Of a stretch of 21,598 nt of DNA, positions 8,260 to 21,261 are shown one piece after another. Position numbers and translations under genes: made by a program. The notes under the pieces are model-generated. The model had not been told where the DNA came from. It saw only the letters and a list, made by a program, of their open reading frames with translations, and ran no database searches. Location of the stretch: positions 1 through 21,598 of IMG/VR virus record IMGVR_UViG_3300020438_000324; one strand, given 5' to 3'. The stretch comes from a virus. The first letter of the stretch is position 1. Every line of letters starts with the position of its first letter.

Positions 8260-11200
8260 TTATAAAGCGTTTCTGAGGTACTCACCTATAGTGTGTGACT
8301 CAATAGGAGTGTTGTTTACTCCACGAGTACAACCTAAGAAACGATCATTCATTTTACTTGTATAAGAAATTTGTTCTCTACCTAATAAAATTGTCCCTGT
8401 AGAAGGGAAGTTGGTAGTATTTGCATACACTGTTTCATTAGTAGCAAGATAACCACCACCACTCTCGTTTGGTAGGTCAGAAGTATCTAGCTGACTAACA
8501 TAATGATTTATGGAAGGATAACCAATATTAAAGATATAATCATTGGTTGCAACCATACTCTCTGCCTGATCTTCAAAAGTACGTAACTCTAGATCAAACC
8601 CCTCAAACTCCTGAATGGTATATGCGGAAACTGAGACACCACCAGTAGATAATATATCACCAGTAGTCATAAACTTAGCACCTTCCCATTGTAGGAATCT
8701 TGGTCCTAGTGTTCCCTGTTCGTATACTGATTCATAGTTGATTCTACGTAAATCAACAAATCCCATATTATATAATGCTTTCTTCTCCATAGGTAGTTGC
8801 ACTCCTCCACCTCCAATAGGATTACCATCACCAGGACTACCATCAGGACGTACTCTTCTGTTACCATACTGATCAATCTCAATAACAGGTAATCTTAATT
8901 GAACAATAGTTTCAGTTTCAATTTCTAGAGTCACTTGTTTTTCAACACTAGGAGAAGGTATAGAAGCGATTACCGTTGGATAGTACTTATTAATTTGTTG
9001 AGTAATAGGTTTAATATCTACACCAGATGTAGTTTGAATAATAGAAGTAATTTTTTGCTTACATCCGTCTGGTGTAGTAATCGCCATATTGAGATTACCC
9101 ATAGTACCAACTTCAAGACCTTTAAATCTAGTAACTTCTGAGTATACAGTAACAGGAGATGGGTATACAATACTAGGATTGAACTTTAATGTAAAACTAC
9201 TAGCAATTTTTCTACCACGTTGTTTAATAATTTTATACTGTCTTGCAGTAACAATCTTTGGTGCTTTTGTATAACCACTACCAGCATTAGTTAATACTAT
9301 ATCAATTATATGACCATCAGAAACAACTACTTCTGCTTTTGCTCCTCCTCCATTTTGATCAACAGGTATAAAATGTAGTACAGGTGTACTATCATATCCA
9401 AACGCAGTTGATCCTTTAGTAACCTTCCACTCAGATTCTATCATCTCTATGGTTGCTTTATTCCATGAAACAGAAGAAACCTTGCCACCATCAATCTCAC
9501 ATGTCGCACTAAGTCCAACACCTCTTGTGTCACCTGCATAGTTGGTTGTGATAATTGTTCCAAAGAAACCAGCAGACACTTCCTCTTGTGGCACATAGGT
9601 CTTAGGATTTACATACCTAGGCAATCCATTAATTGTTCTATAGTCATCTTCACCATCAATCTTGACTATATCACCATCGTTTATATTTGATAGTAGTCTA
9701 TTCCTTACATAGAAAGCTTCATCTGCTCTTGGAGTACCATATAACCACCTAGCAGAGTTTCTTTGCATTCTATAGTTCTGATCACTATCTCTAACAACTG
9801 CTATAGTATTAGTTACACCAGTAAGTTCATACTCATCAGCAAAGTCAGAAGATCTAGCAAAGAAAACAGAAGAACCATCTAGGTCTGGATTGTTACCAAC
9901 CAAAGTAATAATTAATTTCTGATCTGTGGTTGTATATGTTTTAACATTACCAAGCATACGCTTAGTTCCACCAACCTTTTGGTATGCTACTTGGAAATAA
10001 TCATATGATAAACCATACCAATCTTTCCAAGCACCAAAAGTATTAGTAGAACCTGCATCACAAGTAAGAATAATTTCATTAAAATATTGCCCTGCCTCAA
10101 AATCATATAGAGTCATAGCAGGATCAATATCTCTACCATAAAGAACAATAATCTCTACATTGTTTTCTTTCTTTATCTTTTTATTGAATGTAATAGCAGG
10201 TCCAACAATATTGTAAGAATCTTCTTCTCTTTGTAAGACACCATCAATAAAGACCATTACAAGTCTTGTATCATTTATTACTTTTACTTTTTTGTCTGAA
10301 TCTAATATTAAATAAGGTCCAGCAGAATCTTCCTCTACAATAGAACATCTAAGGTAACTACCAATACCGTGACCAAAGAACTTTTCAACTGCTAATGGTT
10401 CCTGAAGAGTTTTTGTATTTTCTGTCTGATTCCATATTGGTGCTTCATCAAATACAATCTTGTTAGGAACATCAGTTCTATCAATTGTATATGCAGGATT
10501 ATGCTGCAATACTCCACTTAATGCAATAAACAGATCTTCATTAACTTGTGTATCAACACCAGTTCCATCTTCATAATATAAATCAAATATTTTACTTTCT
10601 CCATTGAAATAGTCAGGATTAGTTAGTGTAGCAGCGTCTTCTCCATTAGTTAATATTAATGTTAGAACATTAGATAATGTATCTAATGCAGAAAGAACAT
10701 TAGCACATTTATTAGGAGCACTATCTGCTAATATATGAATATTCTCATATCCATCACTCAGTTCATTATTAACTGCTTGTTTAGCAAGACTAACAGCATG
10801 TTGATATGCTTCTACTCCTGCTTCTAATTCCGAAGTTTTATCACCTGTTGCTGCATCAGTAAGCACTCCTTCTCCAGTTAAAGAAGAAAGAACACCACCA
10901 GTGTAATAAGATTTACCTTCATATACTGTTTTCCAGTTTCCACCAAATCTTATATCATGTGACCATGCATCTAAAACCTGACCTATATTTCTAGAGAACT
11001 TACCTTCTGTAACATTCCAAGGTAACTCAGGATATGTAGATTTTATATAAGTAATAGTTTTATCTACTATAGTACTTCTATTACGTTCAATCTGATTAGC
11101 AGAGTCAATCCACCTACCACTTCTTTGGAATATGTTCTTAATCTTCTTAAGATACTTTTGATTTAAAGTATTATCTTTAAATTGGAAATATCTTCCATAA

Positions 11201-14200
11201 AAAGTAACACTAGGAATATCTTGACCACTTTTAACTCTTGATCCAAGAGGAGGTTGTGTAAAAGTTATCTTATCTTCGTTAATAGTATAAGATACACCTG
11301 GTTCTTGTAATATACCATCAAGAGTAATTACAAGAGCTTGTTCATTATATGGTCTAACAGAATTACCATTAGCATCAACCATATTGAATAATGTTCTTCC
11401 TTCTAAGTTTCCTTTATTTGTTAATCCACCATCAAAAGGAAGGTTTAAGAATATATTACCAGCAGTAATCTCAGCAGTATTAATAGCATCAATAGAAACA
11501 GATCCTACACCCCTTTCTACTAAAGTTGGTTGAACTGTTACAATGCTTTGGGTTAACTGTCTCCTAGTGCTTTCTACAGTGATCTTATTAACTTCTGGAT
11601 CCCATAGTTGTATAACACTAGTCTTAGAAGAAACAGTATCACTACTCATCTTAACTTCAGCAGAACTATTAATAAGTACTTCCCCAAATAATTGGAATCC
11701 TGCTGGATGAGTAGTTTCCTTAATTAATTTTCTCCATACATCAATGGAGGTTTCTGATTTAATCGTATATGAGTAATCTTGATAATAATAGGAATCTGTG
11801 ATTCTTTGATTGGAATCACTAATCTTACCACTATCAGATTTGTAATATCCCATATTATCAAAATATGTTTTAATAACAGGAGAATACTCTGTATAGGAAA
11901 TACTTAAGACATTAGCAGTATTATTCTTAGCAAGTCCTTTAATTTCTTTATTTTCTCTTAAGATTCCTTCAACCCTATCAATAACTAAGATGTTAGATCC
12001 ACTTACCCAAGAAGTTACTCTTGCTCTTGCAACTTCAGTAGAACCAGACTTTTGAACTATTGTCTCACCAATACTAAAAGCATCTCTATCAAAATTGGAT
12101 ACAATAAGAATGTAATTAGAAGTAAAAGTTGAACTTAATGTATTATCATTATGATAAGATCCACCATTATTGATTATCTTTATATTTCTAGGTGTACCAA
12201 TATCAGTACTTGATAAGAAACATTCTACATTTGTATCAAGTACTCCATCTACATCAAATATTCCTGTTACAATAGGAATCTTTTTATAATCAACTCCAAT
12301 ACTAGTAATCTTAACAGAATTGATTTCACCAACAGATGTTAATGATTTAGAAACATATTTGATTGATCCACTACCATCATTGGTAGCTACTATAACAGTT
12401 GAATAAAGAATTTTTGTTGGTGTAACATATATTACATTTTTTGTTCCTTGTAAAGGATCGTTGATAACATTTAAACAAGAATTTTCAGAATCAACTATTC
12501 CATCTCTATCATAGTAATAGTATTTGATATATGGTGATGGTTTTCTCTCATCATAAACATTTGTTGTTGTTCTGGATCCATAACCCAATTTTAATTCAAC
12601 AATATTATTTTGCTCTGTTTTTTCTGGTGTAACTAAATTGAAATTAACACTAGGTGATATATCAAACCCAACACCTGCCATTGATGTGTCACTTACATCA
12701 AATCTATATTTGTAATACTTTTTAATGTCAATCTGTTTGTTTCTTTCTCCATCAATTTCAAAATAATAATTTGCATTAGTAATACTTGCAATCTCTACAA
12801 GTCTCTTGTCTCCATCAACGTCTGGTTGATCAAAGAAAGTAGAACTTAAAGAAAGTTTGGTTATAGTAGATAATGTTTTATTTGTATCCCATGATACAAC
12901 CAATTTATGAGTATCTGAATCATAAGAAACTACAGAACCATCTTCAACCGCAAATCCTACAGGCAATCCATATCCACCACCATATAAAGTAACAGAAGCA
13001 CCATTAAAATGATTTACTGCTACTGTGTTCTTTTGCCCTCTCTGAACTGTGAAAACATTTGATGCTCTAGACTGAACTAATACAATTTCACTACCAACAT
13101 TCAAATAATCTCCTTGCTTTATATCATTACCATTATCAATAATCAATTCTGTGTTATCTGATGCAAATCCAACATGATCAACACGAACTAACAATTCAGC
13201 AGTATCTGAATTTGATTTAAATACAACATTAGTACCTATACTAAGTTCATCTCCTACTGCATACCCAGTTCCTTTGTTAGTTATCTTTATTTCAAAAATT
13301 ATATTATCTGATGAAACTTTAATTGTACCTTTTGCACCTGATCCTTTTCCACCAATCAAATTTATATTAGTATATTCACCCTGTGTATAATCAGCACCAC
13401 CATTTAATATAGATAGTTTACCAATTCCGTTATCAGTGAGAACCCTTGCTACAACAGGGTTTTTGAGGACTACATCTTGATATATTTTTTTCTTTACAGT
13501 ATATGTTGTAGTAGTGTTTGCATCATTAGGATCAATATCAATATCAATTGATTCTCCAACACCAACACCATGAGAAGTATCTGTAGTTAGTAATGCTACA
13601 TTATCTGTTATATTAAAAATTGGAAGATTTTCACTTAAATTTGTAATAGATACAATTTTTGCTCCAGGTGTGTTTAATAGATTAGAACTAGTTAAGAAAT
13701 AAGTTTGATCAACAACAAAACCAGTATCTGTAACCTTTACCTTAACTGTATTTTGTGCAGATGTTGTTTCTAATATTTCTCCAACCGCAATAGGAGCATT
13801 TACACCATCACTTAAAGAAAGAATAGCACCCTTTGTATAAGTGACATTAATATCAAGTATCAATGATAAAACTTTAGTACTTGATGATAGTACATCAGTA
13901 CTATTCATAGTACCAGAAACATTTTCTATGACAAAATTTCTTCCTGAGAATACATTACCAACTATCTTACCATTAGCACCAGTTACCCCCTGAGTGATAG
14001 TATCACCATCAAATAGGTAAGCAGTACTAGAAAGGTTTACATATAAAACTTTTGATTGCTGAGAATCTATTGATAGTACAGTTTTACCCTTTACAGAATC
14101 TACTTCACCAACAGCACCATATCCTCCAGTATTATTATCATCTATTGATAGTTTACAACCAACAGAAAAATTATTACCACTATTTGTTATTAAACCTGAA

Positions 14201-16857
14201 GATACACTTCCTCTATTCGTATCTTCAATCTTAGCTATAGTTAAGTCACCATTATTATCAATATCTGATGTTCTTAATCTCTTTGCTTTCTTTGGAATAT
14301 CTGTCTGTGATATTGAAGAATTTGAATTGGAGTCTAAAGGAAGTGAATAATAATTAACTCCTATTATATAAGGAAATACTGGTTTGTCTAAACCATCAAC
14401 AGTAATAAAATATGCATATGTGCCATTAGGATATTCTGGTGTTACACAATACCTTCCATTATTAGCATCTAGATGTCCACTTTCATCTTCATAAACATAA
14501 TCATTAATATATGTTCCAATAGGATCAGTAGGACCACCATCTCTAGTAGTAAGAGCAGTATAACTAGAATTCATTCTAACAATAGCAGATCCTACATCTA
14601 GTGGACTTATATAACCATAAGCACCATATATGGGGTTACCATCATATGCAAACCCTAAGATAGGTGAATGCTGTGATCCGTTATCATTTGCCCTTAATGT
14701 AGTAGGAGATGCATAATAGGCATAACCAGTTCCTAATTCAGGTGAAAAGTTTTTAAAGAAATAACCATTATCAGAATCAAGATTATTATTATTCTTAAAA
14801 TACCTATCCTTTCTCCATTCCTTAATTGTTGCAGTTGCAGTTGCACTAGATCCAACAGGAATCACTTCTAATGATATATTATTCTGTGTGTAAAGACTTC
14901 CACCATTGTTTTTAACAAATCCAGTGATTTCTCCTGTATTTGATACTTCAGCAGTAAAATCTGCAAACCTTCCTTTTCCAGCACCATCAGTTATCCTAAT
15001 AATAGGTGGTGATGAATAATACTCACCAGAATCATTAATTGTAATACTTGTTACTTCACCTGCTGTAACAACTGGTGTTAGAAGAGCACCTCTACCAGAT
15101 AGAATTTCAACAGTAGGATTCTCAGTATAATTACCAACATCTTCAATACTTATAGATTCAACAACTTGTCCAGCAAGTTTAGCAGTTGCTTTGTTTGGAA
15201 AACCATTAATTAATACAAATGGTGCTTTGCTATAACCATTTCCTCTATTACCCACAGTAATTTTTTGTAGTGGACCGTTATAAACTACATCTTCATCCTT
15301 ATAACTTACAAAAGGTACACCATTAATTGCAATACCAATATCCCTATACTTAGTCTCATATGTCTCAGTAATTGAGATAGCATCTTTTCTTATTATCTTT
15401 AATAATTTTTGATCTTGTAAATCTGTAGGTGGTGTTCCTGTTCCAATAGCATGTGATGGAAATCCTGAAGAAGCAATATAATACCCTTCACCATCTTGAT
15501 ATATTGCTGAAACATTAGAAGGTAAATCAGCAACACTAGCAATTTGAGGATCTGTACTACTGAATACCCATCTATTGTTATTCTGTGCATCAACAATCTT
15601 TACATCATTTGTAATAAATCCAGGTTTTGATATTTCAATAACATCATTTGGATTTGAATATGGTACTTTTGTGCTAGGTTCTACATTATAAAGGACACCA
15701 TAGACTAATAGATCAACATCATCAGTACCAACATTAGCTCCATATGTTACAGAAGTACCAATAGGGTAAGTTCCAGTGCCTGATCTAGTTTTTATTACGA
15801 ATTGATTTACATTTTTATTTTCATATGTTATGGTTTCAGCACCTATATTAAATTTTCCTTTAGAATCCCATGCAATTGTGGAAAAAACATTAACTCTACC
15901 ACCAATACTAAGAGAATTATTAATTTCTTTAGTTAATTTTGTTCGTGAAGCAATCTTAAACTCTCCATTTACAGTTGCTTCATTAAGAATAATCTCATAT
16001 AACTCCTCACCATCAAACTTACCAGAATATCTAACGTTATCAACTACAGCAGATGCATAAGAACCTTCAATATCCTGTACTATCTTCTTACCAATTAGAT
16101 TAGTTGGTGTTCCTGAAACAACTTTTGCTTTAATTGAATATGATTGTACCCAATTAGATTCTGAAGGTTTTAAAGTAAAATCTCTTGGGTATGCAACTTC
16201 AGGATTTGTTCCACCAAGATCAACTAAACACTTAAATAAAAATTTGATTGAGTTGTCTGTTCCCTTTGATTGGTAAAAAGAACTAATATTTTTAATAAGA
16301 GTTCTCTTATCTACATTACCTTTTAAATACTCTTCTGGAAAATCAGACAGATACTGCTTTTCAAAACTCTTTACAAATGCATATAAGAATAGATTACTGA
16401 TATTACTTACTGTAGATCCATCTACATGACTTGCAGACTGTGTAGTAATAAAAGTACTCTTCTCATAAAGATCACCTAAAGTACTATTACCACTTACTCC
16501 ACGACTAACTTCTAAAAATTCTGTATTTGTTCTACTAGTATAGAAACATATTTCATCATCTATTTTAATGTATCCACCTTGCTTTGGAAATGAAGTAGCA
16601 TCATCTACAGTAATAGTAGTATCTGAATCAAGTACCAATCCATTAAGTGTAGTACCCTGTACTAATAGATTCTTCTCATAGAAATCAATGTCACGGTAAG
16701 TTGTAAGATTGTTGACAATATCTAATGGTTGACCTTGAATCTCAAGCTGCTCATAATACTTCTGTATGAACTTAGAAAACAGTTCATACTCCTCATTAAT
16801 AAAATCAGGTAATTGTGACTCAATTAAAGTTGAGACTTTATTCGCAGATTTAGGCAC
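8260..16857 (-). CDS. Giant gp7-position baseplate protein (2865 aa) with split gp7-like core
   Basis: GTG start at 16857; the gp6 stop and this start share one base (TAGTG). Residues 1-265 resemble the C-terminal part of T4 gp7: a helical start, then VDKRTLIKNISSFYQSKGTD (residues 182-201) and NSIKFLFK (202-209), then NLIGKKIV (253-260). T4 gp7 has DKRDAV...FY.STKG...YKFLFK...LVGQTI. A later block, THPAGFQLFG (1716-1725), resembles the T4 HPVGF segment. Between them lie about 1,430 residues of beta modules. These include Gly-Tyr-Pro-Pro repeats (530-650), a YHYH-like domain (729-834), and 'GDTITQG' modules (947-990, 1594-1642). After it come three 'DGVLQ...Y.I...I.F...YGR' repeats (1843-1890, 2108-2145, 2198-2243) and a helical insert (1893-1985). 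The C-terminal 55 residues repeat a module found near the N-terminus. T4 gp7 is about 1,030 aa. Role as the wedge protein between gp6 and gp8 is inferred from position and these motifs. No catalytic site was recognised. Confidence 0.85.
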   Translation of the reverse strand: MPKSANKVSTLIESQLPDFINEEYELFSKFIQKYYEQLEIQGQPLDIVNNLTTYRDIDFYEKNLLVQGTTLNGLVLDSDTTITVDDATSFPKQGGYIKIDDEICFYTSRTNTEFLEVSRGVSGNSTLGDLYEKSTFITTQSASHVDGSTVSNISNLFLYAFVKSFEKQYLSDFPEEYLKGNVDKRTLIKNISSFYQSKGTDNSIKFLFKCLVDLGGTNPEVAYPRDFTLKPSESNWVQSYSIKAKVVSGTPTNLIGKKIVQDIEGSYASAVVDNVRYSGKFDGEELYEIILNEATVNGEFKIASRTKLTKEINNSLSIGGRVNVFSTIAWDSKGKFNIGAETITYENKNVNQFVIKTRSGTGTYPIGTSVTYGANVGTDDVDLLVYGVLYNVEPSTKVPYSNPNDVIEISKPGFITNDVKIVDAQNNNRWVFSSTDPQIASVADLPSNVSAIYQDGEGYYIASSGFPSHAIGTGTPPTDLQDQKLLKIIRKDAISITETYETKYRDIGIAINGVPFVSYKDEDVVYNGPLQKITVGNRGNGYSKAPFVLINGFPNKATAKLAGQVVESISIEDVGNYTENPTVEILSGRGALLTPVVTAGEVTSITINDSGEYYSSPPIIRITDGAGKGRFADFTAEVSNTGEITGFVKNNGGSLYTQNNISLEVIPVGSSATATATIKEWRKDRYFKNNNNLDSDNGYFFKNFSPELGTGYAYYASPTTLRANDNGSQHSPILGFAYDGNPIYGAYGYISPLDVGSAIVRMNSSYTALTTRDGGPTDPIGTYINDYVYEDESGHLDANNGRYCVTPEYPNGTYAYFITVDGLDKPVFPYIIGVNYYSLPLDSNSNSSISQTDIPKKAKRLRTSDIDNNGDLTIAKIEDTNRGSVSSGLITNSGNNFSVGCKLSIDDNNTGGYGAVGEVDSVKGKTVLSIDSQQSKVLYVNLSSTAYLFDGDTITQGVTGANGKIVGNVFSGRNFVIENVSGTMNSTDVLSSSTKVLSLILDINVTYTKGAILSLSDGVNAPIAVGEILETTSAQNTVKVKVTDTGFVVDQTYFLTSSNLLNTPGAKIVSITNLSENLPIFNITDNVALLTTDTSHGVGVGESIDIDIDPNDANTTTTYTVKKKIYQDVVLKNPVVARVLTDNGIGKLSILNGGADYTQGEYTNINLIGGKGSGAKGTIKVSSDNIIFEIKITNKGTGYAVGDELSIGTNVVFKSNSDTAELLVRVDHVGFASDNTELIIDNGNDIKQGDYLNVGSEIVLVQSRASNVFTVQRGQKNTVAVNHFNGASVTLYGGGYGLPVGFAVEDGSVVSYDSDTHKLVVSWDTNKTLSTITKLSLSSTFFDQPDVDGDKRLVEIASITNANYYFEIDGERNKQIDIKKYYKYRFDVSDTSMAGVGFDISPSVNFNLVTPEKTEQNNIVELKLGYGSRTTTNVYDERKPSPYIKYYYYDRDGIVDSENSCLNVINDPLQGTKNVIYVTPTKILYSTVIVATNDGSGSIKYVSKSLTSVGEINSVKITSIGVDYKKIPIVTGIFDVDGVLDTNVECFLSSTDIGTPRNIKIINNGGSYHNDNTLSSTFTSNYILIVSNFDRDAFSIGETIVQKSGSTEVARARVTSWVSGSNILVIDRVEGILRENKEIKGLAKNNTANVLSISYTEYSPVIKTYFDNMGYYKSDSGKISDSNQRITDSYYYQDYSYTIKSETSIDVWRKLIKETTHPAGFQLFGEVLINSSAEVKMSSDTVSSKTSVIQLWDPEVNKITVESTRRQLTQSIVTVQPTLVERGVGSVSIDAINTAEITAGNIFLNLPFDGGLTNKGNLEGRTLFNMVDANGNSVRPYNEQALVITLDGILQEPGVSYTINEDKITFTQPPLGSRVKSGQDIPSVTFYGRYFQFKDNTLNQKYLKKIKNIFQRSGRWIDSANQIERNRSTIVDKTITYIKSTYPELPWNVTEGKFSRNIGQVLDAWSHDIRFGGNWKTVYEGKSYYTGGVLSSLTGEGVLTDAATGDKTSELEAGVEAYQHAVSLAKQAVNNELSDGYENIHILADSAPNKCANVLSALDTLSNVLTLILTNGEDAATLTNPDYFNGESKIFDLYYEDGTGVDTQVNEDLFIALSGVLQHNPAYTIDRTDVPNKIVFDEAPIWNQTENTKTLQEPLAVEKFFGHGIGSYLRCSIVEEDSAGPYLILDSDKKVKVINDTRLVMVFIDGVLQREEDSYNIVGPAITFNKKIKKENNVEIIVLYGRDIDPAMTLYDFEAGQYFNEIILTCDAGSTNTFGAWKDWYGLSYDYFQVAYQKVGGTKRMLGNVKTYTTTDQKLIITLVGNNPDLDGSSVFFARSSDFADEYELTGVTNTIAVVRDSDQNYRMQRNSARWLYGTPRADEAFYVRNRLLSNINDGDIVKIDGEDDYRTINGLPRYVNPKTYVPQEEVSAGFFGTIITTNYAGDTRGVGLSATCEIDGGKVSSVSWNKATIEMIESEWKVTKGSTAFGYDSTPVLHFIPVDQNGGGAKAEVVVSDGHIIDIVLTNAGSGYTKAPKIVTARQYKIIKQRGRKIASSFTLKFNPSIVYPSPVTVYSEVTRFKGLEVGTMGNLNMAITTPDGCKQKITSIIQTTSGVDIKPITQQINKYYPTVIASIPSPSVEKQVTLEIETETIVQLRLPVIEIDQYGNRRVRPDGSPGDGNPIGGGGVQLPMEKKALYNMGFVDLRRINYESVYEQGTLGPRFLQWEGAKFMTTGDILSTGGVSVSAYTIQEFEGFDLELRTFEDQAESMVATNDYIFNIGYPSINHYVSQLDTSDLPNESGGGYLATNETVYANTTNFPSTGTILLGREQISYTSKMNDRFLGCTRGVNNTPIESHTIGEYLRNAL
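8275..8433 (-). repeat. C-terminal copy of the 'NFPSTG..LLGREQISYTS' module
   Basis: Residues 2809-2861 of the giant protein read TNFPSTGTILLGREQISYTS, then FLGCTRGV and a His-Gly-containing end. This has the same order of motifs as residues 78-131 (TSFPKQGGYIKIDDEICFYTS, then FLEVSRGVSG). A looser copy lies at 1238-1292 (NDIKQGDYLNVGSEIVLV, then FTVQRGQ and a His). It is a protein-level repeat: one small beta domain occurs at the start, middle and end of the polypeptide. Modules of this form are common in large marine phage structural proteins. Confidence 0.7.
12982..13146 (-). repeat. Middle copy of the same module in the giant protein
   Basis: Residues 1238-1292: IKQGDYLNVGSEIVLV, then FTVQRGQ and VNHFNGASV. 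It aligns with the N- and C-terminal copies by the G..I.I..E.I.Y, F...RG and H..G positions, but is more diverged. Confidence 0.55.
14356..14673 (-). other. YHYH-like domain inside the giant protein
   Basis: Residues 729-834 of the giant protein contain SPILGFAYDGNPIYGAYGY (731-749), then HLDANNGRYCVTPEYPNGTY (795-814), then a hydrophobic FPYIIGVNYY end (828-837). This is the layout of the YHYH domain family, where the namesake motif follows 'P.GTY'. Here the motif reads YAYF, so both histidines are missing. The fold may be kept while any metal-binding function is lost. The domain call is by recall of the family pattern. Confidence 0.6.
16465..16626 (-). repeat. N-terminal copy of the same module in the giant protein
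   Basis: Residues 78-131: TTITVDDATSFPKQGGYIKI, then an acidic EI-F-YTS strand, then FLEVSRGVSG. It interrupts the gp7-like N-terminal region, sitting between the first helices and the VDKR...KFLFK segment. Confidence 0.65.
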
Positions 16858-18659
16858 TACTCTTTATACGCAACGAATTTACTATTTGACACATCTACAT
16901 CTAGATATGCCTCACGCTTTACTTCAATATCTTTATTAGCAGGTTTTACTCGCAATTCAATACGATTATCAGAAAAACTGCTTTTTAAAATAGTGAAGTC
17001 ATAAAGTTGTATTTCACCTTTAGTATAATCAACAGTTCCTATTGAATCATTCAATAGAACCTTTTCACCACTTAAGGAATCTAGTCTATATAGGACTATT
17101 TTACCTTTTCTATCTTCAAGGTATGATGTGTAATTAGGATACTCAAAGACTGTCATACCAGTAGATGATACAACAGGATTATCACAATCTACAAGGAAAG
17201 GATTTTGATAACATACTTCATAATATGAAGATGAATTTATCTGTGCTATAAAATCCTTTCTTATAGTAATACTAGTATCATTTGAATTGATAGAACGATC
17301 TACGCTATCAATAACACTGATAAATTTACTATATCTAAATTTACCTTTAAATTTTTCTGTGCCAGAAGATAGTAGATACTGCTGAATCCCAGTGGCAGCC
17401 TTTGCTGCCATCTCAGCAGGAAGTAATTTACTCTTTGTAGAATTATAGTATATCTTACTATTTAACTCAACATATAAAATAGATGGGTCAATAAATTCTG
17501 GTTTAATTGAAGCAACAGTATACTTCTTCAATTCATCTGTTAATTCATTCTTGGTATAAGATGATATTGATGGTGCATCTGTTGGTTTAATTGAAAGGAA
17601 TACTTTACCGTATGCAGGTGGTACTTGATCTTCACCACCAAATACTATAATGTCACTAACAGATGGATATATGTTTCTAACTATAGAAGCAAAGTCATTT
17701 GAAGTTACTGCTCTATTTTGAGATCCATAGAACTTAGGAGCATTGTATTTAATATCATCAATACTCTCAATGTCTGCTCCACCACTAGCATTTTGTACAA
17801 CTGTCAATTCTGTTACATTATATGGTACTTGTATTAATGAATTGGTTTGATCTACAATAGTTCCATTAAATCTAAAGGTTGATGCTCCATTAGTAATATT
17901 ACCATTCGTTACAACAGAACTCAGTTCAACAACCTCATTATCCTCAAGTTTTTTCCCTAATACACCATCACCAAAAAAGATTTCATATTTCTCATCTTCT
18001 ATTTCATTTACAAAGTATACCTTATCATCTGAATTGACATCTAATATATTATTTGCTTTGATATACAATTCAGACTGTGTTGTATTAGCAGATTCGTAAA
18101 TCCTTACCTTAAGTGTATTGATATCAGTAGATGGGTTATCAATAATAAATCTTTGACCTTTTGCATTAGAATCAACAGATGTCCTTGTCTGAATAAGAGA
18201 TCCTTCGTAAATAGGTAAATTAGCAAACGATACAGTACCGTTACTAACAGTCTCTCTATAATCTTCTGTTACAATAAAACGATATAAACTACCATCATAG
18301 TTAGTAACAAATCCACTACCTGCTTTTATAGTGACAGATACAGGAGCATTATTATTAAAGGTAAGACTTAGATTGATTAATGCTTGAGCAGCAGTTTTTG
18401 ATTTGGGAGAATACCCTAGTTGCTTTGCTAGAGAGACTACGTTATCCCTTAGAGACGCTGAATCAAGGAATAGTTCATTCACTACCATATTGGTATTGAA
18501 CGCTGTGTAGTACGTATTATATGCCAATACATCCAACACTTGACTTAAAGCAGATCCTTCAAAATCGTAGTCAGTGAAGTCTGTTTGTGCTCTCATATAG
18601 TCTTTGAGAGCTGTTTTAATATCAATGAAGTCTAAATTGTTTAACTGGGTGTATGGCAT
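16857..18659 (-). CDS. 6: Baseplate wedge protein gp6
   Basis: This 600-aa protein shows the T4 gp6 N-terminal signature. Residues 28-48 read DFTDYDFEGSALSQVLDVLAY, followed by ELFLDSASLRDNVVSLAKQL (62-81) and GYSPKSKTAAQ (82-92). T4 has EFLDYDFEGSRLNVLCDLLAYNT and LRSSVVQAAQDNGYLPTSKSAAQ. T4 gp6 is 660 aa, so the length fits. gp6 is related to the phage Mu-type baseplate J family and dimerises to tie wedges into the ring around the hub. It starts with ATG sharing one base with the gp25 stop (TAATG) and ends sharing one base with the GTG of the giant gene (TAGTG). This suggests translational coupling of the three wedge genes in matched amounts. Confidence 0.97.
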   Translation of the reverse strand: MPYTQLNNLDFIDIKTALKDYMRAQTDFTDYDFEGSALSQVLDVLAYNTYYTAFNTNMVVNELFLDSASLRDNVVSLAKQLGYSPKSKTAAQALINLSLTFNNNAPVSVTIKAGSGFVTNYDGSLYRFIVTEDYRETVSNGTVSFANLPIYEGSLIQTRTSVDSNAKGQRFIIDNPSTDINTLKVRIYESANTTQSELYIKANNILDVNSDDKVYFVNEIEDEKYEIFFGDGVLGKKLEDNEVVELSSVVTNGNITNGASTFRFNGTIVDQTNSLIQVPYNVTELTVVQNASGGADIESIDDIKYNAPKFYGSQNRAVTSNDFASIVRNIYPSVSDIIVFGGEDQVPPAYGKVFLSIKPTDAPSISSYTKNELTDELKKYTVASIKPEFIDPSILYVELNSKIYYNSTKSKLLPAEMAAKAATGIQQYLLSSGTEKFKGKFRYSKFISVIDSVDRSINSNDTSITIRKDFIAQINSSSYYEVCYQNPFLVDCDNPVVSSTGMTVFEYPNYTSYLEDRKGKIVLYRLDSLSGEKVLLNDSIGTVDYTKGEIQLYDFTILKSSFSDNRIELRVKPANKDIEVKREAYLDVDVSNSKFVAYKE

Positions 18660-19051
18660 TATCTCGTCCTAGCTAGGAAGAACTGTATGTTGGTTGGTGG
18701 TGTGTCTACACCTCTTAATGTATAAGTCATCTCAACATCAAAACCATTATCATTAAAATTTGGTATACATCTTAAATCTTCAATGGCAATTCTAGGTTCG
18801 TAAGTTCCTATTGTTGATTCTATATTTGTTTTGACTTGTGCAGCAGTAGCATAATCCAATGGTTCAAATAAGAACTTCCTTATGTTTGAACCATAGTCAG
18901 GATTAAATAATTTCTCACCTTTATTTGTCAATAGCAAATTTACTATTGCTTGTTTAACAGCAGAAGCATCCCTACTAACAACTAAGTCATTAGTAACAGG
19001 ATGCTTTTTAAAAGTAATATTAATGTCCTTAAAGGACAGTGCTTCCACCAT
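18659..19051 (-). CDS. 25: Baseplate wedge protein gp25
   Basis: A 130-aa protein, almost the same length as T4 gp25 (132 aa). It has the features of the gp25/lysozyme-like baseplate family, which despite the name has no lysozyme activity. These are an N-terminal segment with VSRDASAVKQAIVNLLLTN, then GEKLFNPDYGSNIRKFLFEP (residues 45-64), and the conserved YEPRI motif near 84-88 followed by a strand-rich end. gp25 joins gp6 and gp53 in the wedge core and contacts the tube/sheath initiation site. The ATG at 19051 is preceded by a small hairpin (19054-19075) and a late-promoter-like box (19079-19086). No Shine-Dalgarno sequence is obvious. Confidence 0.97.
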   Translation of the reverse strand: MVEALSFKDINITFKKHPVTNDLVVSRDASAVKQAIVNLLLTNKGEKLFNPDYGSNIRKFLFEPLDYATAAQVKTNIESTIGTYEPRIAIEDLRCIPNFNDNGFDVEMTYTLRGVDTPPTNIQFFLARTR

Positions 19052-19053
19052 TT

Positions 19054-19075
19054 ACTGACAATATACGAAGTCAGT
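19054..19075 (-). promoter_or_regulatory. Small hairpin immediately before the gp25 start
   Basis: Minus strand: ACTGAC, a 10-nt loop, GTCAGT, ending 2 bases before the ATG. If the box at 19079-19086 is a promoter, this hairpin would form the 5' end of the gp25 mRNA. With only a 6-bp stem it is weak and may be chance. Confidence 0.3.
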
Positions 19076-19078
19076 AGT

Positions 19079-19086
19079 TATTTAGA
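19079..19086 (-). promoter_or_regulatory. Possible variant late promoter for gp25
   Basis: Minus-strand sequence TCTAAATA, one mismatch from TATAAATA, 28-35 bp before the gp25 start and just after the stop of the oxygenase gene. Its position matches the gp8 promoter arrangement, but the second base of the core differs from consensus, so activity is uncertain. Confidence 0.35.
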
Positions 19087-19090
19087 CAGT

Positions 19091-19687
19091 TTATACAGAG
19101 TATTGATATCCGTTCTTACTCACTAACTCAGTCTCTGCAATGTTAAATGCTAAAGTTATTCTTTCTTTATCTTCTTGAAATGGCATTACGCAGTGTACTA
19201 CATCACTAGGGAACATAATCATAGTTCCATTCTTTCCTTCATACTCACAACCAAGATCAAAGAATTTAGTTGGGTGATTATGATTCTTATAGTAGATCAC
19301 ACCTGATAGAAACCCTGAATGATTATGCGGAGGATTGTCATCTCCTTTATATGCAAAGTTAGTCCATAGGTCATATTTGTCAAAATAACCAGGCCAATTC
19401 TTTAATTTGAACTCACGGAGATTTCTTCCTTTCCCCCAATGTTCATGCGTCAATCGTAATACCCATGCCAACCAAAATGAATCTTCAATCAAACGTGCAG
19501 GTACACCACATTGATATGAATTATGCTTTCTTCCATCACTAGAAAGATATCCAACATTCTCATGTGCTCTTATATCTGCTAAAGGATGGTTCTTAACTCT
19601 AATACTACAAGTAACCCAATAATCAATCTCTTCTTGTATAGATTCGGGAATATCAAAGATTAATATATTATCCCTTAGTTTTTTCAT
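19091..19687 (-). CDS. Putative 2OG-Fe(II)-dependent dioxygenase
   Basis: A 198-aa protein with the C-terminal layout of a phage/cyanobacterial 2-oxoglutarate and Fe(II)-dependent oxygenase family. The segment NPPHNHSGFLSGVIYY spans residues 118-133, and TMIMFPSDVVHCVMPF spans 155-170. A second conserved segment, ERITLAFNI (175-183), follows. Candidate iron ligands are H121, H123 and H165, and R176 is the likely 2-oxoglutarate contact. The first ligand motif is H-x-H rather than the usual H-x-D/E, which I believe is common in this family but changes the ligand set. Such enzymes hydroxylate protein, nucleotide or small-molecule substrates; nothing here fixes the substrate. The ATG overlaps the SET gene stop by 4 nt (ATGA), so the two are probably co-translated. 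The stop lies 39 bp before gp25. Confidence 0.8.
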   Translation of the reverse strand: MKKLRDNILIFDIPESIQEEIDYWVTCSIRVKNHPLADIRAHENVGYLSSDGRKHNSYQCGVPARLIEDSFWLAWVLRLTHEHWGKGRNLREFKLKNWPGYFDKYDLWTNFAYKGDDNPPHNHSGFLSGVIYYKNHNHPTKFFDLGCEYEGKNGTMIMFPSDVVHCVMPFQEDKERITLAFNIAETELVSKNGYQYSV

Positions 19688-19977
19688 ACTTTATAAAAGG
19701 TGTATTTTAAAAATAATTCTTCGCCTTGCTTAATTTCTTTAATCGTCTTCATATGGTACACTTTACACCCACCTTGGTTATCCGACCATTTAACGCAATT
19801 GGGGTCTTCAGAGTGATTTATGAACCCTCCTAGAGGCGTTCTTATGATTTCCCCATTAACTATCACGTGGGATACACCAAGATACATCATAGCAGGTATA
19901 TCTTCTTTCGCAAAAAGACCTTGACCTGCTATGGTACTATTCTTTACATGTAATTCATTCGGTAAAGCTTGGTACAT
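19684..19977 (-). CDS. Minimal SET-domain protein (putative protein lysine methyltransferase)
   Basis: This 97-aa protein carries the SET core in order. STIAGQGLFAKEDI (residues 14-27) contains the GxG cofactor loop. FINHSEDPNC (52-61) is the NHSxxPN signature. IKQGEELFLKYTFYK (82-96) is the GEEL...Y motif with the C-terminal tyrosine (Y92). Known SET enzymes methylate lysine using S-adenosylmethionine. Here the pre-SET and post-SET regions are absent and the whole protein is a bare core. Small SET proteins of this kind occur in marine phages. The target is unknown; virion, host ribosomal or DNA-binding proteins are possibilities. It overlaps the downstream oxygenase by 4 nt. The ATG at 19977 has no clear Shine-Dalgarno sequence. 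Confidence 0.82.
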   Translation of the reverse strand: MYQALPNELHVKNSTIAGQGLFAKEDIPAMMYLGVSHVIVNGEIIRTPLGGFINHSEDPNCVKWSDNQGGCKVYHMKTIKEIKQGEELFLKYTFYKV

Positions 19978-20018
19978 TGTATTACTTCGGAGATTTGGTC
20001 GGAGTCCACGCCATTTTT

Positions 20019-20156
20019 TTAACTACCCTGCCCTCTATATCTTTTCTTACGCCCATTTCGTGCTGTCGCACTAAGCTTCGTATTCTGGGAATTGCCTTGA
20101 CGTGTCTTTTTAGGTTTTGGTGGTGACTGATCACCATTGTTAGAATATAATGCCAT
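20019..20156 (-). CDS. Small basic protein of 45 aa, function unknown
   Basis: The frame reads ATG at 20156 to TAA at 20019. The protein begins MALYSNNGDQSPPKPKKTRQ and ends with RNGRKKRYRGQGS. It is very basic (many Lys/Arg), rich in Gly, Asn, Ser and Pro, and has no hydrophobic core, so it is probably disordered and may bind nucleic acid or an acidic partner. It looks like a short protein I recall from T4-like cyanophages at this kind of position, but I cannot confirm that. It fills the otherwise empty gap between PAAR (26 bp after its stop) and the SET gene. An AGGAA lies about 15 nt before the start. Confidence 0.7.
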   Translation of the reverse strand: MALYSNNGDQSPPKPKKTRQGNSQNTKLSATARNGRKKRYRGQGS

Positions 20157-20182
20157 AAAATAATATGATTTCCTATATTATA

Positions 20183-20500
20183 TCACAATCCACCAGTTCC
20201 TGCAAGTACTGTGAGGGATGCTGAAACAACTAATCCCTGAGCAACAGTGTCACCAATTACCGAAACAGGTTGCCCTCCCACTATAACACTCGGAACACCT
20301 GGTCCAGTTATGGGTTTGGTAAGGGAAACACAAACAGGGGGTACACCTGACAGGTAGGGTGCTGTTAGATCACCCAATCTTGCACAAGGTATACTATCTA
20401 CTATTACACTCAAAGCACCAGGTCCAGCAATTGTTGTTGCTGACTGACACAGATCATTCGTAGTTACTGCATCACCTACTCGTGTTACTCCACCTGGCAT
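20183..20500 (-). CDS. PAAR-repeat tail spike tip protein (gp5.4-like)
   Basis: A 105-aa protein with the PAAR pattern. It starts MPGGVTRVGD, and a first repeat reads GPGALSVIVDSIPCARLGD (residues 26-44). A second reads GPGVPSVIVGGQPVSVIGD (66-84), followed by a Gly-rich end. PAAR proteins form a cone that caps the beta-helical spike (T4 gp5/gp5.4) and pierces the cell envelope. Family members usually hold a zinc ion with histidines and a cysteine. This one contains no histidine at all; the 'GDxTxH' positions read GDAVTT and GDTVAQ, and three cysteines (18, 39, 52) are present. A good Shine-Dalgarno sequence (GAGGAG) lies 8-13 nt before the ATG at 20500. Confidence 0.9.
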   Translation of the reverse strand: MPGGVTRVGDAVTTNDLCQSATTIAGPGALSVIVDSIPCARLGDLTAPYLSGVPPVCVSLTKPITGPGVPSVIVGGQPVSVIGDTVAQGLVVSASLTVLAGTGGL

Positions 20501-20760: not shown

Positions 20761-20800
20761 AGTTATCTAGTATCTCTTGGTAATTATTTCTAGGATCCAT
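20543..20800 (-). CDS. Unknown acidic protein overlapping the coiled-coil frame
   Basis: 85 codons from ATG at 20800, which overlaps the stop of the upstream 100-aa gene by 11 nt; upstream in-frame start 20833 is less likely. The protein starts MDPRNNYQEILDNFEQFCDG, then FEAGAAKRF, and continues with a hydrophilic, acidic tail ending ITGTSEYS. A short AGG lies before the start. The N-terminal half looks helical and natural; the tail looks disordered. It overlaps the frame at 20485-20760 over about 218 nt in a different register, and ends 42 nt before PAAR. Function not recognised. Confidence 0.55.
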   Translation of the reverse strand: MDPRNNYQEILDNFEQFCDGFEAGAAKRFSGQDDDSRQPIDNAEIQRQTPTVVREIDGDGTEDLITGETSLDVPPTSITGTSEYS

Positions 20801-21092
20801 AGTTAATACCTGATGGAGGTTCGGGCGGACCATCGTGGGTGAACTTCGGAAACCTTGTCTGTGTTTCCAATTCGTTTAACCTATTATCTAAGTCACTTAG
20901 TTTAACTGCCACGTTCTCTAAGGCATCTACGATTCTTGCAATCTGTTTGTCGTGTACCACTACTGCGTACTTCGGATTCTCTAAAAGTTCTTGGTGGGCA
21001 GCTTCGTCAGGACTTTCTGCCTTCACGTCCACTATGTCGGTATTTGGAGCCATAATTTTAAATGCTTTATTGGGTTCGTCTTTTTTGACCAT
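20790..21092 (-). CDS. Unknown 100-aa protein, first gene after the late promoter
   Basis: Starts MVKKDEPNKAFKIMAPNTDI. It contains a short alpha/beta-looking N-terminal part (PDEAAHQELLENPKYAVVVH, residues 28-47). A predicted coiled coil follows at about residues 50-76 (IARIVDALENVAVKLSDLDN onward), and the end is Pro/Gly-rich (HDGPPEPPSG). I do not recognise a family. It lies about 59 bp downstream of a perfect late promoter box, so it is likely expressed with the virion genes. Only a poly-A run, not a Shine-Dalgarno sequence, precedes the ATG. Confidence 0.75.
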   Translation of the reverse strand: MVKKDEPNKAFKIMAPNTDIVDVKAESPDEAAHQELLENPKYAVVVHDKQIARIVDALENVAVKLSDLDNRLNELETQTRFPKFTHDGPPEPPSGINYGS

Positions 21093-21233
21093 TTTTTTGC
21101 TGGAAAAATTTTTTCAAAATCAAGGTTTTGAATATTGAAATTCGTAGAAATATTTATATGTCGTTGGGATACTGTTGTAGACTTTCAAATGGTTAGGAGT
21201 CCCACTCGGCATCGCCCCACGCACCGCACCCAC
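21093..21233. other. Intergenic region between terminator and first late gene
   Basis: No supported gene. It holds the late promoter box at 21151-21158 and an AT-rich leader with short poly-A/poly-T runs. Short open frames here appear to be shadows. Confidence 0.6.
21151..21158 (-). promoter_or_regulatory. T4-type late promoter opening the structural operon
   Basis: Perfect TATAAATA on the minus strand, 59-66 bp before the ATG at 21092 and about 75 bp after the terminator at 21234-21261. The combination of terminator and then late box makes a clean transcription boundary. Confidence 0.85.
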
Positions 21234-21261
21234 AAAAAAACCCTGTCATTTGGGACAGGGT
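21234..21261 (-). terminator. Rho-independent terminator
   Basis: On the minus strand: ACCCTGTC, a 6-nt loop (CCAAAT), GACAGGGT, then a run of T's. This is an 8-bp GC-rich stem with a U-tract, placed 12 bp after the stop codon of the gene ending at 21273. It separates that gene from the late operon. Confidence 0.9.

Follow-up and report, generated by a model that had tools for sequence, protein, structure and literature searches.

The window analysed here is a 21.6-kb IMG/VR virus fragment whose minus strand encodes a T4-like cyanophage baseplate module. Along this strand, the gene for a PAAR-motif protein of the spike tip (20183..20500; PF05488, E 1e-6) is followed by a gene for a conserved, Lys/Arg-rich cyanomyovirus protein of 45 aa, here called basic45 (20019..20156; phrog_516, E 5e-19), a gene for a SET-domain protein of 97 aa (19684..19977; phrog_28741), a gene for a PF13759-type putative 2OG-Fe(II) oxygenase of 198 aa (19091..19687; phrog_81), the gene of the baseplate wedge protein and sheath initiator gp25, which is the fixed downstream neighbour (18659..19051; PF04965, phrog_261), and gp6 (16857-18659). 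The preliminary description had placed the SET and 2OG genes between the spike-tip gene and the wedge genes, coupled by 4 nt, and both points were confirmed: PAAR precedes them, gp25 and gp6 come after, and the stop codon of SET overlaps the start codon of 2OG in an ATGA (19684..19687, minus strand). It had missed basic45, the gene directly upstream of SET, which opens the unit to which SET and 2OG belong; a 51-aa ORF from the six-frame list (19982-20137) was rejected as a wrong-frame ORF over basic45. Elsewhere in the window (8260-16857), a giant virion structural protein of 2865 aa contains a YHYH domain (PF14240, E 1e-29) at residues about 677-821.

The SET and 2OG frames both stay open in relatives, with 74-97% identity for 2OG and with SET found in 165 loci, and the two ORFs are therefore real genes. 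Neighbouring genes overlap as well, by 1 nt at gp25/gp6 and at gp6/next gene in the window and by 4 nt at basic45/SET in many relatives. Overlaps of 1-4 nt are thus ordinary in this module, so that the overlap of SET and 2OG by itself says little about a functional pair.

The SET ORF matched PF00856 well above the gathering cut-off (E 5e-11, 43.3 bits; cut-off 22.4) and contains the motifs GxG, RTPLGGFxNHSxxPNC and GEELxxxY, the last including the catalytic Tyr. G18, G20, N54, H55, N60, E87 and Y92 were invariant in 47 sequences. The AlphaFold2 model was confident (pLDDT 92.7), and Foldseek returned 243 fold matches at E<=0.001, among them the MLL1 SET domain and PBCV-1 vSET. Most relatives have a length of 94-105 aa, and the motifs are invariant across phages and bacteria; judged by length and motif spacing, the protein appears to be devoid of the insertions and the post-SET region of the eukaryotic enzymes. 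With fold and catalytic motifs intact, the assignment as a SET methyltransferase stands, and the protein is very likely to be catalytically active. It resembles PBCV-1 vSET (A612L) in being a small stand-alone viral SET protein (TM-score 0.71 to 3kma over the query) with SAM-binding and catalytic motifs in common, but vSET has 119 aa and the phage protein belongs to a cyanobacterial phage. Since cyanobacterial hosts are without eukaryotic histones, H3K27 cannot be its target.

The same small SET family was also found in marine bacterial genome records (L213-L266) of Flavobacteriaceae, Porticoccaceae, SAR86 and others, some of which may in fact be phage contigs placed in bacterial bins. Within each group the neighbour genes are conserved; inspected by eye, they resemble symporters and aminotransferases in Flavobacteriaceae and fabA/fabB in Porticoccaceae. 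No hint at a substrate was found among the neighbours of these bacterial homologues.

For the second enzyme, the assignment to the 2OG-Fe(II) oxygenases held for family and fold but not for the metal motif. The ORF passed the PF13759 cut-off (E 9e-13, 49 bits; cut-off 27), and W108, H121, H123, H165, R176 and N182 were invariant in 22 sequences. These residues provide the 2OG-binding Arg near the C-terminus (R176), which is the first residue of an RxS/T motif in the window protein (RIT) and in about half of the relatives, whereas the canonical HxD/E...H metal triad is replaced by an invariant HxH...H. Phmmer against the PDB gave chance matches only; profile search and fold comparison identified 3BVC and 2RG4, both uncharacterised, as the nearest solved relatives. 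Both have HIH and the same HxH...H...R pattern, and HxH is therefore a trait of the PF13759-type family rather than damage. The remaining PF13759/phrog_81 proteins of cyanophages are of the identical Pfam and PHROG family with the same HxH...H...R pattern; the window type differs from them as a narrow subfamily of five complete loci, all with SET beside the 2OG gene, and one truncated locus. When the window-type HxH proteins were compared by hhalign with the HxD proteins of the phrog_274 type, the C-terminal half alone aligned.

Catalysis by the 2OG protein is plausible. It was proposed for many cyanophage 2OG proteins that they act on host nitrogen status (Sullivan et al., 2010, PMC3037559), and the protein might accordingly draw down or sense 2-oxoglutarate, or act on a small molecule, instead of hydroxylating a protein. 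The next fold neighbours found by Foldseek include the free-lysine halogenases/hydroxylases BesD and HalA, as would suit a small-molecule substrate, but equally the protein prolyl hydroxylases PHD2 and P. putida EF-Tu P4H. Since model confidence is moderate (pLDDT 77, AlphaFold2) and HxH leaves the metal chemistry putative, we regard this alternative as possible but rather doubtful. As a side observation, phrog_274 is labelled 'DNA endonuclease V' in PHROGs, a label that is probably mistaken: several of its members in the interval between basic45 and gp25 (L095 1632-2402, L110 2952-3671, L112 828-1391) instead hit 2OG-Fe(II) oxygenase families in Pfam.

Promoter motifs were then compared across relatives, a sigma70-type site being defined as TTGACA with 16-18 nt spacing or as an extended -10. 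Such a site precedes basic45 in 76 of 87 non-redundant loci (shuffled sequences gave 1.4), and its usual distance to the start codon is 20-26 nt. It is not universal, being absent in the cultured phages Syn9 and P-HM2. In the window (20177..20205, minus strand) it consists of TTGCAG (20200-20205), 17 nt and the extended -10 TGA-TATAAT (20177-20185), in which the TGA of the TGn extension is the stop codon of the PAAR gene. Because the -35 is weak, a strict promoter scan did not retrieve the window site, and the predicted strength of this promoter derives from its extended -10 and from the conservation of such sites. Sigma70-type sites directly before SET (0/58) or 2OG (1/28) were not clearly above chance. 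The late promoter motif NATAAATA/TAAATA, the former being the published late consensus of S-PM2 (PMC2984593), was found directly upstream of SET in 5/58, of 2OG in 1/28 (both near chance) and of basic45 in 0/87. The gene gp25, by contrast, has the late core TAAATA in the 60 nt before it in each of 94 distinct sequences, the distance to the start codon being 28-36 nt (60/60 non-redundant, compared with 4.5 in shuffles). In the window this core lies at 19079..19084 (minus strand, CTAAATA context) and marks the downstream boundary of the interval from basic45 to gp25, referred to below as the slot.

Early timing of the slot unit is rather probable on the basis of this promoter anatomy. A second late promoter, TATAAATA (21151..21158, minus strand), lies ~64 nt upstream of the ORF 20790-21092, and its core is kept in 29/52 relatives; read-through from there into the slot could add late expression, and the slot genes may be expressed both early and late, as dual early/late control was proposed for S-PM2 genes (PMC2984593). 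The preliminary description had reasoned from late expression to action on virion proteins, or on host proteins at assembly time, and the step from late expression to the virion has become doubtful, since the slot has an early-type promoter and gp25 a late promoter of its own, late read-through being nevertheless possible. Because an early-type promoter is located among late tail genes, the role of the slot would be remodelling of the infected cell rather than virus building.

Two further elements on the minus strand were observed near the late cores. A perfect 7-bp inverted repeat, TACTGAC-ttcgtatatt-GTCAGTA (19053-19076), lies just after the late core and just before the start codon of gp25, and a similar repeat precedes gp25 in many relatives, often with GTCGGTA, by which a G-T pair is kept. 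In the late gp25 transcript it would fold into a hairpin close to the 5' end; gene 25 of T4 has an unusual, hairpin-assisted start. The other element, a terminator-like hairpin of 8 bp with six T behind it (21240-21261), is found a short way upstream of the 21151-21158 late core, where it may insulate the PAAR-side operon from the preceding gene.

Whether SET and 2OG belong together was judged from loci gathered with gp25 as bait, which is less biased than the use of SET or 2OG baits, and with a wide detection of 2OG genes including the phrog_274 type. In the 114 complete slots, which came from a similarity ranking against the gp25 baits and from fragments whose missing parts may contain further genes, SET was present in 52 (46%), any 2OG in 22, both in 10 and neither in 50. 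The 10 slots with both genes compare with 10.0 expected by independence, and with near-duplicates merged the odds ratio was 0.9-2.2 over four thresholds (p 0.34-1). Most SET loci are without 2OG, 12 slots have a 2OG gene without SET, and the slot 2OGs belong to several unrelated subfamilies (phrog_81, phrog_274 and others), located before SET, after SET or alone. Adjacency of the pair next to gp25, for which the preliminary description had suggested a survey, is therefore not seen across the wider family, but within the close 2OG subfamily SET is adjacent in all five complete loci (L006-L009, L089), L088 being truncated. The recurrent element is the SET gene, not the SET-2OG pair. Other slot cargo noticed by eye includes purM-like and purC (SAICAR synthetase)-like genes (L034, 3233-5001) and a GIY-YIG-like homing endonuclease (L175, 1495-2535); slot endonucleases could drive exchange.

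SET has a second conserved home in a cluster of nucleotide and carbon metabolism genes, in the order nrdB - GC659 - SET - GC430 - talC. This arrangement is found in P-SSM7 (L001, 5001-5300), where SET is annotated as hypothetical and lies away from the structural genes, and in viral loci such as L036, L054 and L061. A tree of 113 SETs, built from few alignment columns and unresolved at many nodes, requires two or more relocations of the gene between the gp25 slot and the nrdB-talC cluster, and SETs found together with a window-type 2OG are spread over different clades. The histories of SET and gp25 disagree both ways, because their third-position identities diverge in opposite directions: 87% for SET and 42% for gp25 between L040 and L048, compared with 55% and 94% between L015 and L029. 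SET is thus exchanged between phage lineages. Between the window and L009, DNA identity is 67% for basic45, 85% for SET, 91% for 2OG and 75% for gp25; within the close 2OG subfamily the adjacency with SET was inherited or exchanged as a block. In P-RSM6, SET occupies the gp25 slot and the closest cultured relative of the window 2OG (45% identical) is encoded far away.

These data bear on the reading that SET and 2OG are a late functional pair which jointly modifies one virion protein, namely of the baseplate. The 4-nt overlap, the location between PAAR and gp25, the constant adjacency in the five complete loci and the possible late read-through would all fit it, but the two genes are unassociated over the 114 slots, each is frequently found without the other, SET also resides at the nrdB-talC site, the 2OG relative of P-RSM6 lies at a distant site and the slot has an early-type promoter. 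A conserved functional pair was consequently rejected, as co-occurrence does not exceed chance, and joint modification of a virion protein is considered very improbable.

The gene order also suggests another substrate, basic45 itself, whose Lys/Arg-rich sequence could serve as a histone-tail-like peptide, the slot order then placing a substrate next to its enzyme. It lies directly upstream of SET, with the 4-nt overlap of many loci, and there are prokaryotic precedents for SET proteins that act on basic DNA-binding proteins: cpnSET acts on Hc1 and Go1-SET on MC1-alpha (PMC3980110). The distribution of the two genes speaks against it, since 448 phage records contain basic45, each with a name of the type cyanophage, Synechococcus, Prochlorococcus or marine virus, compared with just six records for SET, two of which are duplicates, and the SET gene of the nrdB-talC clusters does not have basic45 as a neighbour. 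Moreover, the lysines of basic45 are about equally conserved with and without SET, for which reason basic45 was discarded as a dedicated substrate; methylation of basic45 by SET is, in our view, unlikely. With Go1-SET, cpnSET and BaSET the phage protein shares the SET fold and motifs, and the phage family has bacterial relatives, but it differs as exchangeable phage-borne cargo.

The SET family, the PF13759 family and the recombination hot-spot are already known. The last was described in cyanophages as lying 'between gp46 and gp25' (Sullivan et al., 2010, PMC3037559), the identical genomic area with variable small genes; here, its boundaries are resolved as a sigma70-type promoter with basic45 on one side and the gp25 late promoter on the other, and SET and 2OG enzymes are identified as recurrent cargo. 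In the open literature searched, the coverage of which was partial, we found no SET methyltransferase named in a cyanophage and no cargo slot immediately ahead of gp25 that begins with an early-type promoter.

Taken together, we favour, with a probability of about 0.6, the reading that SET and 2OG are early-type exchangeable cargo, in which SET is a minimal lysine methyltransferase acting most likely on a host protein and 2OG is a separate cargo. The genes, their folds and motifs, the slot anatomy, the conservation of the promoter motifs, the independent assortment and the exchange were established by the analysis, and from there we infer early transcription, catalytic activity and a host target of SET; for the target taken by itself, a host protein is slightly favoured over a virion protein. 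Both genes would be cargo in the T4-like cyanophage hot-spot between basic45 and gp25, and the host sigma70 polymerase would read basic45, SET and 2OG as one early-type unit from the promoter before basic45. The unit would be formed by runs of genes that overlap or lie close together, and overlapping stops and starts would couple the translation of SET and 2OG. During takeover, SET would use SAM to methylate lysine, most likely in a host protein or in a basic protein bound to DNA or RNA, whereas 2OG, acquired independently as a second cargo, would carry out a separate oxidation and need not share the substrate of SET. Transcription would restart at gp25 from its own late promoter, the wedge genes being made later.

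A further-reaching version is proposed tentatively: in marine cyanophages, methylation of host-protein lysine by an early, minimal SET may be a mechanism of takeover, to which some lineages would add a second protein-modifying oxygenase in the same exchangeable cassette. As part of this version, the transcription, translation or nucleoid machinery may, for example, provide the host targets, which we likewise propose with reserve. Almost half of the gp25-anchored marine slots contain SET, yet very few cultured cyanophages do, and there it is called 'hypothetical'. The promoter anatomy of the slot indicates that a location among late tail genes need not mean late expression. Should an early action of SET on a host protein prove true, the methylation of lysines in proteins would be a tool of phage takeover, and the slot would be a place to look for other such tools.
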